From Candidatus Saccharimonadota bacterium (GTDB taxonomy: Bacteria > Patescibacteriota > Saccharimonadia > Saccharimonadales > UBA4665): 55,444 nt of DNA. Position 1 is the stretch's first letter. Every line of letters begins with the position of its first letter. Below the pieces are notes generated by a model that saw nothing but the letters and a program-made list of their open reading frames with translations, was not told where the DNA came from and did no database searches. The stretch is taken from contig DAHXLX010000015.1 of assembly GCA_027365775.1 (NCBI GenBank), positions 1 through 55,444 of the forward strand, given 5' to 3'. Below, piece after piece: positions 9,969-20,053 of the stretch. The position numbers and the translations under genes are program-made.

Positions 9969-12467
9969 ATGGACAAAAATAAACTTAAACACGTCTCAGT
10001 AAATGAGCTCGCGGATTCGTTAAAAACTTCTACCAGCGGCTTATCGTCTTCCGAGGCCGAGAACCGGCTGGGACAGTATGGTTTTAACATACTCAAGAAT
10101 GAAACCAAACGCAGTACGTTCAAACTTTTAGTTAAGCAGTTTAGAAGCTCGCTTGTCTATTTGCTGGTGGTTGCTTCAGTGCTGTCCTTTATCCTAAACG
10201 ACCTTAACGACGCCATAGTTATCGCTGTAATTCTGATAATCAATACCGGGCTTGGCTTTTATCAAGAGTACAAATCCGAAAAGGCAGTTGAAAAATTGCA
10301 GAAGTTAGTCGGTAAGGAAGTGCTTGCCATCCGTGACGGTAAACAGGTACTGGTAGCTGAACGGTTGCTTGTGCCTGGAGATGTGGTTATCTTGCGCGAA
10401 GGAGATGTAGTGTCTGCCGATATCAGGTTGTTTAGCGCTCAAGACTTGAGCGTTAATGAATCCCAGCTGAGCGGCGAGTCCGTAGCTGTAGCCAAAAGTC
10501 TTTCCGGCGAACAAGCATTGGTTTATGCCGGGAGTGTTATCGAACAAGGCGAAGGTCGCGGGTTTGTTTACGCTACGGCCGGCAATACAGAACTTGGCAA
10601 AATTGCTCATTTGTCTAGTTCGACACAACGGACCACCCAGTTTGAAAAATCACTCTCCTCTTTTGGCCGATTTCTGGTTAAGGTCACCTTTTTGACTTTA
10701 CTGGCAGTGCTCATTTTGAAGATTATCATTACTCATGATACGTCGCATATAGCTACGTTTGCGCTGTTTATTATTGCCTTATCGATTGCTGTCGTCCCGG
10801 AAGCTATGCCAGTGATCGTTACCGTCACTCTATCTAGAGGGGCGCTTAATCTTGCTAAGCGCCATGTCATCGCGAAAACCCTTACGGCAGTAGAGGATCT
10901 TGGCAACGTAAATATCTTGTGCAGCGACAAAACCGGTACACTAACAGAGAACAAACAAACCGTCAAGGAAGTGGTGGCAGATGACACTAACTTATTTCAA
11001 TTGCTTGCCATTTGCAGTTTAGAGAGTATGGATGAAAAGCGTAAAAAGTTTCAGAGTTCATTCGATAAAGCTTTTTTGGACTATGTGCCTAAAGACATAC
11101 AAGAGCAGGCGCGGTCTTTCAATCGCTTGGTCGAGCTACCGTTCGACCCGGCGGCAAGGCGAAGGCGGGTCGTAACCAGCAATGGCAACAAAACTTATCT
11201 TATTGAAGTCGGCTCAGTCGAAACCCTGCTGGATATTACTAAAAGTCCCCAAAAGAGTGACTATCTAAGCAAAATAAAAGTCGACGGAAAACGCGGCTTA
11301 AGACACCTGGCTATTGCCTATAAAGAAGTTAACTATACATCGAGTGATCATTTCGACATCTTGAAGCATGAGCAAGACTTACAGTTTGTCGGTTTTGTGG
11401 CGCTTGAAGATCCGCTTAGACCTTCAGCCAAGCATACGATTGCATTAGCCGAAAAACTTGGCGTTGACATAAAAATCCTCTCCGGCGACAGTCGAGAAGT
11501 AACCCAATATGTAGCCAATCAAGTTGGCTTAGTTGATGATGAGCGCGGTATATATACGGGCGATGAGCTTGATAAGCTATCAGATGTCCAACTAGCGAAA
11601 GTAATTCAAGTCAACAGTGCGTTCGCCAGGCTTAATCCGGAACAAAAGTATCGAATTATAAGGTTGCTTAAACTGCAGGGTAATGTGGTGGGCTACCAGG
11701 GTGATGGCATCAACGATGCCCCGGCTTTAAAGCTTGCCGATGTAGCAATCGCAGTTAATAATGCGACAGACGTGGCTCAGGAAAATGCGGATATATTACT
11801 GCTTAGAGATGACATTGAGGTCATTGTCAACGGGATTAAGTATGGCCGGGCGATCTTCAGCAATATTAATAAGTATATTAGGTTTACTTTTGTCAGCAAT
11901 TGGGGCAATTTCTTTGCGCTATCGGCTTTATATCTAATGTCAGTAGCTAACCTACCGATTCTACCCGTGCAGATTCTGCTGACCAGTCTGCTAACTGATC
12001 TGCCGTGCATCACTATAGCTACTGATAATGTCGACGTAACTGAACTGGAACGCCCCGGCAAGTTTAATGTTCATTCGTTGATGTTTATCTCAATGCTTCT
12101 CGGCACGATCACGGCAGTATTTGAGATCATGTACTATAACCTTATCAAAAGCCATTCTGCCGGGGTTGCGGCTACAGGATTATACTTATTCTTAACGTTT
12201 ACCGCGCTTATAGTTATATTTTCTATCCGGAACAAAGATCACTTTTGGAAAGCGCCAAGATTATCCGGGCCGATGAAATTCGGTTTTGCGATTATTTCAG
12301 TGTTGGCAATCGCTTTGGTCTACATACCGGCGTCTAAAAAGCTGCTGTCTTTTTCCAATTTCGGATTAGTGCTGCTGGGCATTACTGCATTAATGACAGT
12401 CATTTACTTCTTGGTGATGGATACCGTAAAAGCGTGGTTCTATAAGGAGAATATACTTAAAGGCTGA
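9969..12467 (+). CDS. P-type cation-transporting ATPase
   Basis: The protein has 832 residues. An N-terminal cation-ATPase domain is followed by paired membrane helices, an actuator domain with SGES (about residue 168), PEAMP in the fourth membrane helix (277-281), the phosphorylation motif DKTGT with Asp320, a nucleotide-binding domain, GDGINDAP in the hinge and a C-terminal bundle of helices. The P2/P3 core is complete and should be active. PEAMP followed by TVTLSRGA, and the downstream NWGNFF...LLTSLLTDLP...TDNVD region, are closer to Mg2+ transporters (MgtA/P3B type) than to SERCA, which has PEGLP. The transported ion is most likely Mg2+, or Ca2+. A TATTAT/TATAAA overlap lies 8-11 bases before the ATG, so the message may be leaderless. 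The gene is monocistronic. Confidence 0.85.
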   Translation: MDKNKLKHVSVNELADSLKTSTSGLSSSEAENRLGQYGFNILKNETKRSTFKLLVKQFRSSLVYLLVVASVLSFILNDLNDAIVIAVILIINTGLGFYQEYKSEKAVEKLQKLVGKEVLAIRDGKQVLVAERLLVPGDVVILREGDVVSADIRLFSAQDLSVNESQLSGESVAVAKSLSGEQALVYAGSVIEQGEGRGFVYATAGNTELGKIAHLSSSTQRTTQFEKSLSSFGRFLVKVTFLTLLAVLILKIIITHDTSHIATFALFIIALSIAVVPEAMPVIVTVTLSRGALNLAKRHVIAKTLTAVEDLGNVNILCSDKTGTLTENKQTVKEVVADDTNLFQLLAICSLESMDEKRKKFQSSFDKAFLDYVPKDIQEQARSFNRLVELPFDPAARRRRVVTSNGNKTYLIEVGSVETLLDITKSPQKSDYLSKIKVDGKRGLRHLAIAYKEVNYTSSDHFDILKHEQDLQFVGFVALEDPLRPSAKHTIALAEKLGVDIKILSGDSREVTQYVANQVGLVDDERGIYTGDELDKLSDVQLAKVIQVNSAFARLNPEQKYRIIRLLKLQGNVVGYQGDGINDAPALKLADVAIAVNNATDVAQENADILLLRDDIEVIVNGIKYGRAIFSNINKYIRFTFVSNWGNFFALSALYLMSVANLPILPVQILLTSLLTDLPCITIATDNVDVTELERPGKFNVHSLMFISMLLGTITAVFEIMYYNLIKSHSAGVAATGLYLFLTFTALIVIFSIRNKDHFWKAPRLSGPMKFGFAIISVLAIALVYIPASKKLLSFSNFGLVLLGITALMTVIYFLVMDTVKAWFYKENILKG

Positions 12468-12550: not shown

Positions 12551-12823
12551 TTAGCGGTTCAGCCTAGATGAGACCAGTTTTTCTTCCAGCTCCATGTTAG
12601 ACGGTTCAGTCAGTATTGAACCGTCGGGGAAAACTATCGTTGGAATTATCTTCATGCTGTTATTAAGTTTGCTGACCAGTTCGGCCGCCTTAACGCTTTC
12701 TTCAATATTGATCCAGTCATAAGCAATGTGATGATCGTCGAGATATTTACGGCTACGATGGCAATCCGGACACCACGTAGCACCATACATCACTAGCTTG
12801 TTTTTAGGTTTAGGGTTGTTCAT
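12551..12823 (-). CDS. Mycoredoxin-like glutaredoxin
   Basis: The product has 90 residues from the chosen ATG at 12823, which has AAAGGTAGG about seven bases upstream. An earlier in-frame ATG at 12868 would overlap the PIG-L gene. The thioredoxin fold carries a CPDC active site (Cys18, Cys21) after MYGATW, then IIPTIVFPDGSILTEPS. The cis-Pro and the 'FPDGS.LT.PS' block are typical of actinobacterial mycoredoxins (Mrx1), which reduce mycothiol mixed disulfides. Those usually have CGYC or CPYC, so CPDC is a variant. It is directly downstream of the PIG-L deacetylase and close to the divergent MshC-like gene, which supports a role in low-molecular-weight thiol metabolism. A generic glutaredoxin is the alternative. 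Confidence 0.7.
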   Translation of the reverse strand: MNNPKPKNKLVMYGATWCPDCHRSRKYLDDHHIAYDWINIEESVKAAELVSKLNNSMKIIPTIVFPDGSILTEPSNMELEEKLVSSRLNR

Positions 12824-12857
12824 GTCAATACCTACCTTTTTAATCACCTGTTTAGCG

Positions 12858-13589
12858 TTAACGGACATCGATTCTCATGAACGCTTCAGCATATTTGCAA
12901 CCGACTTCTTCTCCCAGTGCTTTAGCCCATGTTTTAATCATTTTGCCGACATCTTCTATATTGCTGATTTGACTTTTATGTTCGGCTAGAGCGGCAATCT
13001 TCTTGTCGATATACTCACTTACGTCCACGTAATAATTATGCCGCTCAAAATTAGTCAATAAAACAGTTTTAACTTTATGAGGCTTATAACCTTGACTGAA
13101 TAGCTGCGGAAAGGCCAAATGATCTCTGGCTAGAGGAAAGACTGCATCAAGCGCTATCTGTCCGGCTGCACGATGATCCGGGTGATTAATAAAACCTCTT
13201 TCAGCTGAGTATAGGAGCGAAGGGTCCATGGTCACTACAACATCAGGTCGTACTGTTCTGATGACCTTCACTACCTCTTTTTTGATCTCCATAGTTATTT
13301 CTAAACCACCATCGGGGTAGCCTAAAAATGTGACATTTTTTTCTGATGATCCAAATGCTTTAAGCGCAGCCCTCTGTTCGGCTTCCCGGGTTTTAGCAAG
13401 TTCATTTGGCGAGGCCTTATAGTCAGACGAACCTTGACTTCCATCTGTTATAATTAAGTAATGGATCTTAGCTCCTTGAGCTGCAAACTTTGCCATCGTG
13501 CCTGCAGCACCATAATCTAAGTCATCCGGATGTGCCGCGATGCCTAAAACTATAGCTGGTTTTAATTCGCTGAATTCAGTTGGCCGCAT
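12858..13589 (-). CDS. PIG-L family N-acetylglucosaminide deacetylase (MshB/Mca/BshB-like)
   Basis: The protein has 243 residues. Near the N-terminus it has AAHPDD (19-23), supplying the Zn ligands His20 and Asp23 and the catalytic Asp22, then TDGSQGS, a GYPDGG block and HPDH (136-139), supplying the third Zn ligand. These are the core motifs of the PIG-L deacetylase family, which includes MshB and Mca of mycothiol metabolism and BshB of bacillithiol synthesis. The cysteine-ligase-like gene next door, divergent from it, favours an MshB/Mca-like role: deacetylation of a GlcN-containing thiol precursor, or hydrolysis of thiol conjugates. A TAAAAT lies six bases before the ATG and there is no Shine-Dalgarno sequence. 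It overlaps or nearly abuts the mycoredoxin gene downstream. Confidence 0.85.
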   Translation of the reverse strand: MRPTEFSELKPAIVLGIAAHPDDLDYGAAGTMAKFAAQGAKIHYLIITDGSQGSSDYKASPNELAKTREAEQRAALKAFGSSEKNVTFLGYPDGGLEITMEIKKEVVKVIRTVRPDVVVTMDPSLLYSAERGFINHPDHRAAGQIALDAVFPLARDHLAFPQLFSQGYKPHKVKTVLLTNFERHNYYVDVSEYIDKKIAALAEHKSQISNIEDVGKMIKTWAKALGEEVGCKYAEAFMRIDVR

Positions 13590-13595
13590 TACGCC

Positions 13596-13601
13596 ATTTT
13601 A
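13596..13601 (-). promoter_or_regulatory. -10-like hexamer TAAAAT six bases before ATG start
   Basis: TAAAAT, six bases, then the ATG at 13589. No Shine-Dalgarno sequence is present. It would drive a leaderless message for the PIG-L/mycoredoxin pair. Confidence 0.45.
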
Positions 13602-13646
13602 TCATTAAACATTACAATATATTTTATCTAAAAAAACTACATCATT

Positions 13647-14819
13647 ATGATGAAACTATATGATACGGCGTCTAAAGCCCACAAAATATTTAATCCGGCT
13701 AAATCAGTCGGTATCTATGTCTGCGGGATTACGCCTTATGACTCGGCCCATTTAGGACACATCTTTACTTTTATGACTTATGACCTTATTCAAAGGAGAC
13801 TGGAAGACACCGGTCATGAGGTAAAAATGGTGAGAAATATCACTGATGTAGACGAGCCTATATATAAAAAGGCGGCACAACTGCATATTGATTATCGTGA
13901 GCTGGCTAGCCAAGAAATAAAACGGTTCGAAACAGTCATGACAGCCCTCGACTTCCGGCCGTTATTCGTTCAACCAAAGGCCAGTGAATATATCTACCAG
14001 ATCGTTGACGCCGTTAAGATTCTTTTTAGTCATGGTTTCGCATACAGAGTTGAGGAGGATATATATTTTGATGTAAGCAAAGACCCGAAATTCGGTGAAT
14101 TCAGCAACTTACCGGAAGGTTTAGCGGTTAAGTTTATGCAAAAAAGAGGCGGCGATCCTTATCGGGAAGGTAAGCGATCACCGATGGATTTTCTGCTTTG
14201 GAAAGGTATAACCGATCCAAACGATCCGGCCGCCTGGGATACGGATATTGGACACGGGCGACCCGGTTGGCATATCGAATGCTCGGTAATGTCTTACACG
14301 TTGCTTGATACGCCTTTTGACTTGCATGGTGGCGGTAACGACTTAATATTCCCGCATCATGAATGTGAAATTGCCCAAACACGAGCCATAAGGCATACTG
14401 ATCTGGCGCAACACTGGCTCCACGTTGCTCCTATCATATACCTCGGAGAAAAAATGAGTAAATCTCTTGGTAACATGATCTTTGTCGAAGATTTGCTTAA
14501 GTCATATTCGCCAGCCGCCATAAGGTTGTCTTTAATGCACTATGATTATCGGGAAGGTGGCGAATGGGTACCCGACCTTCTTGATGAATCGACCAACCTT
14601 CTGGATAAGTTAAATCATAGTTTTTCGCACTCGACTCCGGAAGCTGCCAGCGATTTGTTGGAATGTATAAGGTCGGCTATTGACGACGACCTTGATACCC
14701 ATACGGTGATTCATTTACTGGAAGACTTTTGTGAGGATAATAACACCAGTCGATCATCAAAAGATGTCGCTCAAGCCAAGGCCTACGTTGATAAATGCCG
14801 TGGTTTATTGGGGATTTAA
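13647..14819 (+). CDS. MshC-like cysteine ligase (cysteinyl-tRNA synthetase paralogue)
   Basis: The protein has 390 residues, near MshC length (about 410) and shorter than CysRS (about 460). Class I synthetase motifs are intact: HLGH (35-38) and KMSKS (269-273). Zn-ligand candidates are Cys26, Cys212 (WHIEC) and the HHEC block at 237-240. The first motif reads CGITPYDSAHLGH, the MshC form; CysRS normally has CGPTVYD. RGGDPYREGK followed by a PMDFLLW segment also matches MshC. The tRNA anticodon-binding domain of CysRS appears reduced. MshC ligates Cys to GlcN-Ins in mycothiol synthesis using ATP. Its divergent neighbours encode a PIG-L deacetylase and a mycoredoxin-like protein. If no other cysS exists in the genome, a CysRS role would have to be reconsidered. 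Confidence 0.75.
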   Translation: MMKLYDTASKAHKIFNPAKSVGIYVCGITPYDSAHLGHIFTFMTYDLIQRRLEDTGHEVKMVRNITDVDEPIYKKAAQLHIDYRELASQEIKRFETVMTALDFRPLFVQPKASEYIYQIVDAVKILFSHGFAYRVEEDIYFDVSKDPKFGEFSNLPEGLAVKFMQKRGGDPYREGKRSPMDFLLWKGITDPNDPAAWDTDIGHGRPGWHIECSVMSYTLLDTPFDLHGGGNDLIFPHHECEIAQTRAIRHTDLAQHWLHVAPIIYLGEKMSKSLGNMIFVEDLLKSYSPAAIRLSLMHYDYREGGEWVPDLLDESTNLLDKLNHSFSHSTPEAASDLLECIRSAIDDDLDTHTVIHLLEDFCEDNNTSRSSKDVAQAKAYVDKCRGLLGI

Positions 14820-17536: not shown

Positions 17537-20053
17537 ATGAAACTTAAAAAAGTGACCAACTTGCAATTAGTAAAACCGGAACTATTCGGATATTTTAAAC
17601 AGCTGACGACAATTAAAATCAGAACCCGGCTTATTTTAATCGGCATATTGTTTTTGGGATTGGCTCTAACCTCATCAGTCATTTCCGGCGCAACGGGAGT
17701 AACCAATATCACTATAAATGGAAAAATGGCCGGTGCCGTGTTTGACGGTATCGGTGCGATTTCGGGTGGCAGCGGCACTTCCAGGTTACTGATCGACTAT
17801 CCTGAGCCGGAACGTGATCAAATCCTGAATTATTTGTTTAAACCGGATTATGGCGCAAGTTTACAACTGCTTAAACTGGAGATTGGCGGCGGTGCCGGTT
17901 TGACCGACGGGTCGGAAGCATCGATTGAACCTGTCCAGGGGAAAATAAATTGTAATTCGGGTTATGAATGGTGGGTTGCCGATCAGGCAGTTGCCCGCAA
18001 TCCGAACATCAGACTATACGGCTTGCAATGGAGTGCGCCGGGGTGGACCGGCAACGGTCCTCACTCACTCTGGACCAACAAGAATGTCAATTATGTCATT
18101 GATTGGCTGAATTGTGCTAAAGCCCACGGATTGAAAATAAGTTACATTGGCGGATGGGATGAAGAAGGCTACAACGCCAGTTGGTACGAACAACTTCGGA
18201 GCGCACTTAATCGCCATGGTTACGGCGGCACCAAGATAGTTGCAGCAGATAGCGTAGTCCGCCCATGGGCAATAGCTACGGCTTTGTCGCATAATCCTAA
18301 GTTCAGACAGGCAGTTAATATAATCGGAGTACATGATACCTGCGCCAGCAATCCGACTAGCGGTTATAGCTGTAATTCATCGGTCGCTGCAAAAAAGCTT
18401 GGTATTCCATTATGGGAAAGTGAACTGGGCGGAATGCCGGCCGACAGCGGTGCCGCAGCAATGGTCAGGTCAATCATTAACGGCTACGATCAAGCAGGGA
18501 TTACCGGTTATCTGGAATGGCCAATGGCTGATTCGATGCTATCGGTGTTGCCTTTTCAGGAACGCGGCCTGTTGACCGCTGAACAACCTTGGACGGGTCA
18601 CTATTCGATCAATTTAATGACCTGGGCAATCGCGCAAACCACGCAGTTTACTCAGCCGGGATGGCGATATGTAAATGGTGCGAATGGCCCGATCGCTAAT
18701 ACTGGCGCTTATAGTAGTTTTGAATCGCCATCGAAGACAAACTGGTCATTGGTCGCCGAGAATACCGGTACGTATTACGGTCAGAAGGTTAAGCCCAAGA
18801 CGCTACACATCAACATAGTCAATTTGCCTCATACCGTGGTTCATGTGTGGCAAACTGATGTCTGGGCCAATAACCAGCCATCAAAATGGTTCATCCACGA
18901 ATCGGACATCCATCCTGTCAATAATGAATTTGTTTACACGATTCAACCGGGTATGGTAGTAACTTTTACGTCTACCAGCGGTCAAGCTAAAGTTGCAGCA
19001 ACCAGCCCACCCGCTCAAAACATACCACTGCCGTATTCAAATCAGCTATCGGTTAACGACGGCAGTAACGAACCAGCCTTGCTTTCATCGCAGGACGGTT
19101 CGTTCGCACTAACCGGTTGCCTGGGTGGTCAAACTGGATTATGTACACAACAAATGACAGCCCAATTACCCGTTTTATGGGGCAATGGATATGCCGGCGT
19201 TAGCTATCCGTATGCGATTATCGGCAGCAGCTGGACAAATTATACGGTGAGCGTAGACCTGTTATTCCAGCAGCCATCAGGTTCCGGTGGCGTAATCGGC
19301 CGCTATGGCAACCGGTCGGGTAATATTGGTAATTTTGACGGCTATTTGTTCAACGTGAGCGAATCCGGCAGCTGGCAGATATTAAAGAATCAAGATACCA
19401 ACTTACCATCCAAACCGGTTGTTCTTGCGTCTGGCAGTGTCAGCCCGTTGGGTTTGGATACCTGGCACACAATCAGTTTGGGGTTTGATGGTTACAAAAT
19501 CGACGCCATGATTGACGGCGTTACGGTTGGATCGGCGATTGATTCTTCGTACTCATCGGGGCTAGCAGGTATCGAGGCCGACGCATTTACCAACAATTGG
19601 TCAAACAACCAATACCAGAAACTTGTAGTTACTCCGGTCAGCGCAACAGATAATAGACTCGATACAGTTGGCTTTAAGTCGGCTATATCTCCAAATAGCT
19701 GTCTGGACGATTACCGAGACGGGGTAGGCTATCCGGATCGTCCTAATAAAGTAGATATCTGGAACTGTAATGGAACGGTATCGCAACGATGGTTGTTGGC
19801 GAGTGGCAGCAGCTTGCAGATAAATGGACAATGTTTAGGTACGTATCAGATAGGAAAGACTACCAGCAACAAGGTTGTCGTCTCTAAATGCATCGGTGGA
19901 CCTAACCAGATATGGCAATTTAATAATGGCCGGCTAATAAATTCTTCAATCGGTAAATGTATCTATGACCCAAATGCCAATCCCGCCAACGGCACCCAGC
20001 TTCTAGTCGGCAAATGCAGCAACAATAAAGACCAGGTATGGATTAAAACATAA
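17537..20053 (+). CDS. Secreted GH59 galactocerebrosidase-like enzyme with ricin-type lectin domain
   Basis: The protein has 838 residues. A basic N-terminus and hydrophobic signal segment (about 31-52) precede a GH59 catalytic domain: FDGIGAISGG, LIDYPEPERDQIL, YLFKPDYGASLQLLKLEIGG. Glu209 in GGWDEEGYN fits the acid/base and Glu296 in PLWESELGG the nucleophile of galactocerebrosidases. A beta-sandwich region follows, then a laminin-G-like segment (about 510-705), and finally a ricin-type beta-trefoil (about 710-838) with repeated Q-x-W motifs (SQRW, NQIW, DQVW). GH59 enzymes remove galactose from galactosylceramide or related glycosides. The protein is probably released or anchored by its N-terminus. 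It is monocistronic. The presence of both catalytic Glu suggests activity; the substrate is unknown and could be a host glycan. Confidence 0.85.
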   Translation: MKLKKVTNLQLVKPELFGYFKQLTTIKIRTRLILIGILFLGLALTSSVISGATGVTNITINGKMAGAVFDGIGAISGGSGTSRLLIDYPEPERDQILNYLFKPDYGASLQLLKLEIGGGAGLTDGSEASIEPVQGKINCNSGYEWWVADQAVARNPNIRLYGLQWSAPGWTGNGPHSLWTNKNVNYVIDWLNCAKAHGLKISYIGGWDEEGYNASWYEQLRSALNRHGYGGTKIVAADSVVRPWAIATALSHNPKFRQAVNIIGVHDTCASNPTSGYSCNSSVAAKKLGIPLWESELGGMPADSGAAAMVRSIINGYDQAGITGYLEWPMADSMLSVLPFQERGLLTAEQPWTGHYSINLMTWAIAQTTQFTQPGWRYVNGANGPIANTGAYSSFESPSKTNWSLVAENTGTYYGQKVKPKTLHINIVNLPHTVVHVWQTDVWANNQPSKWFIHESDIHPVNNEFVYTIQPGMVVTFTSTSGQAKVAATSPPAQNIPLPYSNQLSVNDGSNEPALLSSQDGSFALTGCLGGQTGLCTQQMTAQLPVLWGNGYAGVSYPYAIIGSSWTNYTVSVDLLFQQPSGSGGVIGRYGNRSGNIGNFDGYLFNVSESGSWQILKNQDTNLPSKPVVLASGSVSPLGLDTWHTISLGFDGYKIDAMIDGVTVGSAIDSSYSSGLAGIEADAFTNNWSNNQYQKLVVTPVSATDNRLDTVGFKSAISPNSCLDDYRDGVGYPDRPNKVDIWNCNGTVSQRWLLASGSSLQINGQCLGTYQIGKTTSNKVVVSKCIGGPNQIWQFNNGRLINSSIGKCIYDPNANPANGTQLLVGKCSNNKDQVWIKT

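Follow-up and report, generated by a model that had tools for sequence, protein, structure and literature searches.

A pair of neighboring genes encoding a PIG-L deacetylase and a predicted MshC-type cysteine ligase is kept together in Saccharibacteria and recurs in Micrarchaeota and in other Patescibacteria. The best reading of this pair, held here at a probability of about two in three, is that its enzymes would deacetylate GlcNAc-X and then ligate cysteine to the product, resulting in a mycothiol- or bacillithiol-like thiol (Cys-GlcN-X). As a conserved cassette the pair probably makes a small protective thiol. The chances are about even for the wider proposal of an undescribed cysteinyl-glucosaminide thiol made by a minimal cassette of two genes that is common to ultra-small prokaryotes from two domains (Saccharibacteria, other Patescibacteria, and Micrarchaeota); it would have been overlooked because the ligase is taken in annotation for a second cysteinyl-tRNA synthetase (CysRS). 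Such a cassette would provide a candidate low-molecular-weight thiol for CPR bacteria and DPANN archaea, two groups with a poorly characterized redox chemistry. Both enzymes are small and apparently soluble, which makes them easy to express and assay.

The Locus and Its Three Genes

The window (the whole stretch of 55,444 nucleotides that was analysed) comes from a 715-kb genome in 20 contigs that is 70% complete, and the source bacterium is tiny and probably host-dependent. Most of the genomes used for comparison are drafts, and the window's own genome alone carries little weight for any absence. All three genes between positions 12551 and 14819 are intact, with the ligase reading frame divergent from two minus-strand frames that overlap by 11 nt at the end of the PIG-L gene (table 1). 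The original prediction, made from the letters alone, located these genes correctly, and its motifs were recovered as described: CGITPYD and RGGDPYREGK lie in the ligase frame, and the PIG-L gene stands head-to-head with it. The Pfam and NCBIfam matches bear out the domain names given in that prediction, but none of the three proteins reaches a curated NCBIfam equivalog cut-off.

Table 1. Features of the PIG-L–ligase locus (window coordinates)
Feature	Position	Strand	Description
Mycoredoxin-like glutaredoxin	12551-12868	-	105 aa, CPDC motif; PF00462
PIG-L (LmbE-type) deacetylase, BshB/diacetylchitobiose-deacetylase-like	12858-13589	-	243 aa; PF02585
Intergenic region, divergent PIG-L/ligase	13590-13646	.	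57 bp; presumably holds both promoters
MshC-type cysteine ligase	13647-14819	+	390 aa; catalytic domain CysRS-like, anticodon-binding part incomplete; PF01406

A P-type ATPase gene (9969-12467, + strand) adjoins the three genes; its product scores between the H+ (IIIA) and Mg2+ (IIIB) families, and its position is not kept in the relatives. On the other side, a large secreted-looking protein (17537-20053, + strand), by eye glycosidase-like with a C-terminal lectin-like part, has a homologue with 29% identity (L048:2760-4403, - strand) near the PIG-L–ligase pair of genome G091.

An MshC-Type Ligase in Addition to a Separate CysRS

Judged by its sequence, the ligase is an MshC-type cysteine ligase that lacks the anticodon domain and is not the CysRS of its genome. 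It scores 373.3 bits against the MshC model (TIGR03447, cut-off 485.1) versus 323 bits against cysS (cut-off 340) and stays below both cut-offs; that of TIGR03447 is also missed by a protein with an actinobacterial MshC title (L111, 431 bits). The prospect that the protein might be the only cysS of the genome, raised with the original prediction, is contradicted by a separate CysRS of 457 aa on contig C2 (G000:C2:29600-30796) that is 35% identical to it. A CysRS-type gene is present in nearly all of the 149 relatives (about 31-39% identity to the window ligase among the rows listed), and 18 of these relatives encode an additional protein that is 51-64% identical to the window ligase and separated from the CysRS-type class by a clean gap.

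In a phylogenetic tree of 88 rows, the CysRS formed a single clade (100), as did the saccharibacterial ligases (100), and the latter grouped with 17 actinobacterial MshC proteins as their sister group (99), all support values being SH-aLRT from short searches. After one mistranslated row with a very long branch (L253) was left out and one Micrarchaeal row was relabelled, the split between MshC-type proteins and CysRS was clean (100). A placement of the saccharibacterial ligases with the CysRS was rejected (AU test, p = 0.004, 33-row set), bearing out the predicted MshC-type identity.

The ligase carries CGITPY where CysRS carry CGPTVY, together with an RGGxP block midway along its sequence; the HxGH and KMSKS motifs are present and the C-terminal part of CysRS is missing. 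The structure nearest to its AlphaFold model (pLDDT 87) is the Mycobacterium smegmatis MshC. Five residues reported to hold the zinc and the cysteine in MshC (C43, C231, H256, T46, and T83; PMC9736012) correspond to C26, C212, H237, T29, and T66 of the window ligase in an alignment read by eye, and all five are invariant among 26 ligases of three lineages. The window ligase thus shares these residues, its length, its fold (TM about 0.9), and the CGITPY loop with the actinobacterial MshC (PDB 3c8z, 8hfm), but it is about 35-47% identical to them, is paired with a PIG-L protein of the BshB/Dac type, and occurs in genomes without MshA and MshD.

The PIG-L Deacetylase

By family, the PIG-L protein is an amino-sugar deacetylase; by descent, as far as its sequence tells, it is neither MshB nor Mca. 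Its NCBIfam scores are 113 bits for BshB1 (cut-off 182.5), 61 for Mca, and 52 for MshB (cut-off 224). The 17 PIG-L relatives match the same four families, again with BshB1 best, and the AHPDD and HPDH motifs are invariant among them. By sequence and fold, the closest proteins are archaeal N,N-diacetylchitobiose deacetylases (PDB 8bgn, 3wl4, and 3we7 being the closest solved relatives), followed by LnmX and BshB, with MshB far behind. The archaeal enzymes work in chitin breakdown; unlike theirs, the window PIG-L gene adjoins that of a cysteine ligase. BshB1, the GlcNAc-malate deacetylase of bacillithiol synthesis (TIGR04001; PDB 6p2t, 2ixd), is likewise a PIG-L protein and the best match among the thiol families. 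The window system differs from that of BshB1 in that its PIG-L falls below the cut-off, the partner ligase is of the MshC and not the BshC type, and no BshA over the cut-off was found.

Conservation of the Pair within the Order

Overall, 19 of the 150 genomes of the order, the window's own included, carry the ligase. PIG-L is encoded in all 19 of these carriers compared with 56 of the 150 genomes overall (hypergeometric 8e-10, uncorrected for kinship), and chance does not account for the association. It is the head-to-head neighbor of the ligase in 18 carriers and lies elsewhere in G043; in G057 the PIG-L gene is split across two frames. About 36 relatives have the gene but no ligase, which indicates that PIG-L has another or a wider role. 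No replacement ligase was seen beside PIG-L in the ligase-free genomes, where its neighbors encode an aldo-keto reductase, a HAD-type regulator, an MFS protein, a flavoprotein, and others. Within one genus the ligase is located between PIG-L and an ABC transporter gene in G025 and G072 and is missing from the same place in G061 and G079, showing that it was gained or lost at this exact spot.

Genes of the oxidative pentose-phosphate pathway adjoin PIG-L in six ligase carriers; since they do so in ligase-free genomes too, they support a redox context weakly. At the loci L080-L094, L106, L034-L036, L040, and L051, with or without the ligase, PIG-L is found beside genes for 6-phosphogluconolactonase, 6PGD, and G6PD and an RRM-domain gene. 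Genome G001 contains two PIG-L copies (C4:1498-2208 and C12:25363-25965), the first or second of which is the partner of the ligase while its counterpart lies in a ligase-free pentose-phosphate context.

The Pair in Micrarchaeota, Other Patescibacteria, and Chloroflexota

Outside the Saccharibacteria, a scan of named genomes first revealed the pair in a Micrarchaeota metagenome-assembled genome (L152). High-scoring short ligases were identified in 15 of 245 Micrarchaeota genomes, and in 14 of these the threshold used also gave a separate match of the CysRS type. PIG-L lies directly upstream of the ligase in all 15, abutting or overlapping it as an operon, and the remaining neighborhood varies; on one contig the pair has a replication factor C gene as a neighbor, an argument against bacterial contamination. 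For one weaker short ligase, L254/L279, no PIG-L is visible.

Among the other Patescibacteria, the pair forms an operon behind a GluRS-like gene (named by motif only) in L220 and L221, the PIG-L proteins in this operon slot belonging to two different subfamilies, and is arranged head-to-head in L223. Six further short ligases have no PIG-L in view (L119, L222, L224, L225, L226, and L227; L222 lies at a contig end). In the 88-row tree, most ligases of the Micrarchaeota and the other Patescibacteria fall into a second group of the MshC type, placed between the actinobacterial MshC and the CysRS, with L220 and L221 clustering with a Chloroflexota ligase. Short MshC-type ligases with the signature CG[IV]TPYD were also seen in four records titled Thermobaculum and Chloroflexi (L124, L125, L138, and L144).

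All three of the Micrarchaeal and other Patescibacterial ligases that were tested (L152, L119, and L221) exceed the cysS cut-off; they would thus be named CysRS, which would explain why they were overlooked. Thiol ligases may accordingly stand behind some of the "duplicate CysRS" annotations found next to a PIG-L gene. The distribution also suggests that ligation of the MshC type predates the actinobacteria or is more mobile than they are. No such pathway was known in the other ultra-small bacteria and the Micrarchaeota. A 2020 review reported no MshA-MshC homologues in archaea by InterPro and no mycothiol there (PMC7278568). Judging by titles and abstracts, no paper was found that links mycothiol or such thiols substantively with Saccharibacteria, Patescibacteria, or Micrarchaeota.

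Proposed Pathway

The divergent PIG-L and MshC-type genes are proposed to form a cassette whose two enzymes make a low-molecular-weight thiol resembling mycothiol or bacillithiol. PIG-L would remove the acetyl group from GlcNAc-X and leave a free amine. The ligase would activate cysteine with ATP to cysteinyl-adenylate while zinc holds the cysteine thiol, and would then join the cysteine to the freed amine to form Cys-GlcN-X, where X may be inositol, malate, or another aglycone. An MshD-type acetylation would be unnecessary, as it is for bacillithiol; bacillithiol is a non-acetylated Cys-GlcN thiol, and the absence of MshD is for this reason not fatal to the proposal. In the genus of the window, the mycoredoxin-like protein encoded next door would take the thiol off proteins.

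The independent pairing of the two genes in Micrarchaeota and in L220, L221, and L223 counts for a cassette. Against it count that neither the MshA nor the BshA model retrieves an acceptor-making glycosyltransferase beyond generic GT4 proteins, that no thiol-disulfide reductase of the Mtr type was found, that PIG-L occurs in ligase-free relatives and so do mycoredoxin homologues, and that the PIG-L gene of G057 is split.

Alternative Roles of the Pair

The original prediction favored a mycothiol-like thiol, made, remodelled, or salvaged with precursors from an actinobacterial host. In its canonical form this would mean that the enzymes use GlcNAc-Ins or GlcN-Ins to produce desacetyl-mycothiol or mycothiol, the acceptor coming from a diverged glycosyltransferase or from the host. 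The sister relationship to the actinobacterial MshC, the mycoredoxin gene next door, and homologues of the mycothiol-type INO1 (TIGR03450) in 7 of the 19 saccharibacterial carriers (335-486 bits, cut-off 638) agree with it. The remaining genes of the pathway do not. In 25 genomes no match to MshA passed the cut-off (the best, a generic GT4 protein, reached 127 of 462.5 bits), whereas the Corynebacterium glutamicum control was found; MshD had none in 25 genomes, with a positive control; and mycothione reductase (Mtr) had none, with distant flavoproteins in 4 of 25 genomes. Many of the carriers searched for these three are at least 94% complete, so that the lack of MshA and MshD, at first noted for the window, extends to near-complete relatives. 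The best BshA score (TIGR03999) was 141 of 273.7 bits and again represents generic GT4 proteins, which are present in ligase-free genomes too.

INO1 was found neither in the other 12 saccharibacterial carriers nor in the 15 other CPR or Micrarchaeal carriers searched with TIGR03450; a search with PF07994 gave a false negative, its control having missed C. glutamicum. Where present, the role of INO1 may lie with inositol lipids. From this gene content, and from a PIG-L that is no orthologue of MshB or Mca, it does not follow that the product is mycothiol, and canonical synthesis or salvage is unlikely. For the Saccharibacteria, a salvage route from an actinobacterial host is possible, but as a general explanation it fails: the pair also occurs in Micrarchaeota and in further lineages of the CPR, which as far as is known do not have actinobacterial hosts. 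At the seven INO1 loci (L292-L298), a divergent LysR-type regulator was observed in six, and in one case a CDP-alcohol phosphatidyltransferase gene follows.

It is improbable that the pair attaches cysteine to the amino sugar of an envelope glycan or of a secondary metabolite rather than making a free cellular thiol. The fold of PIG-L is nearest to chitobiose deacetylases, with their chitooligosaccharide substrates, and to LnmX from an antibiotic pathway, but no conserved envelope or antibiotic genes surround the pair, by eye a signal peptide is seen in neither sequence, and redox genes adjoin the pair in several genomes. There is similarly little to recommend a recycling of conjugates, in which a Mca-like PIG-L would cut S-conjugates of a thiol of the host or of the cell itself and the ligase would re-cysteinylate the released GlcN-X. 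The weak similarity of PIG-L to Mca, its persistence without the ligase, and the failure of the MshA and BshA searches to reveal a de novo acceptor pathway would fit, but PIG-L is nearer to deacetylases than to Mca, and a supply of the thiol would be needed. Very improbable, finally, is a translational role like that of CysRS*, the anticodon-less CysRS of Desulfobacterales that charges the special tRNA SelC* (PMC9437257), or of a decayed cysS duplicate: CysRS* resembles the window ligase in being a short CysRS-like paralogue alongside a normal CysRS, and the catalytic domain, its HxGH and KMSKS motifs, and the cysS scores of the Micrarchaeal and other CPR ligases are in keeping with such a role, but a CysRS or a decayed duplicate is rejected on the tree, the MshC signature, and the separate, intact cysS, the PIG-L partner is constant, and neither in the window nor at 36 loci does an unusual tRNA adjoin the gene.

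The Mycoredoxin-Like Protein

The third protein was predicted to be mycoredoxin-like, and mycoredoxin-1 (Rv3198A) is indeed both its best family (TIGR02200, 80.5 bits, slightly under the cut-off of 89.5) and its best solved relative (PDB 2lqo, Rv3198.1). The two share the CxxC motif, and the CxDC form is invariant among the mycoredoxin-like proteins. Unlike mycoredoxin-1, it has homologues in ligase-free relatives and others fused to a thioredoxin-reductase-like domain; homologues are encoded elsewhere in both carriers and non-carriers. The gene adjoins the pair in five carriers of the same genus only. Of the trio originally proposed, the PIG-L–ligase pair is therefore what is conserved; the trio is really a duo with a genus-specific mycoredoxin neighbor.

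One fusion (L283:1495-2700, genome G011) comprises 401 aa and joins a mycoredoxin-like domain, 59% identical to the window protein, to a thioredoxin-reductase-like flavoprotein; it may by itself serve as a complete disulfide reductase for the thiol. Long frames with mycoredoxin homology were also observed in G017, G025, G052, and G058. In two genomes the mycoredoxin gene is followed by two related genes (L037:8295-10158 in G005 and L038:748-2611 in G009), and the one that was tested encodes a luciferase-like monooxygenase (PF00296).
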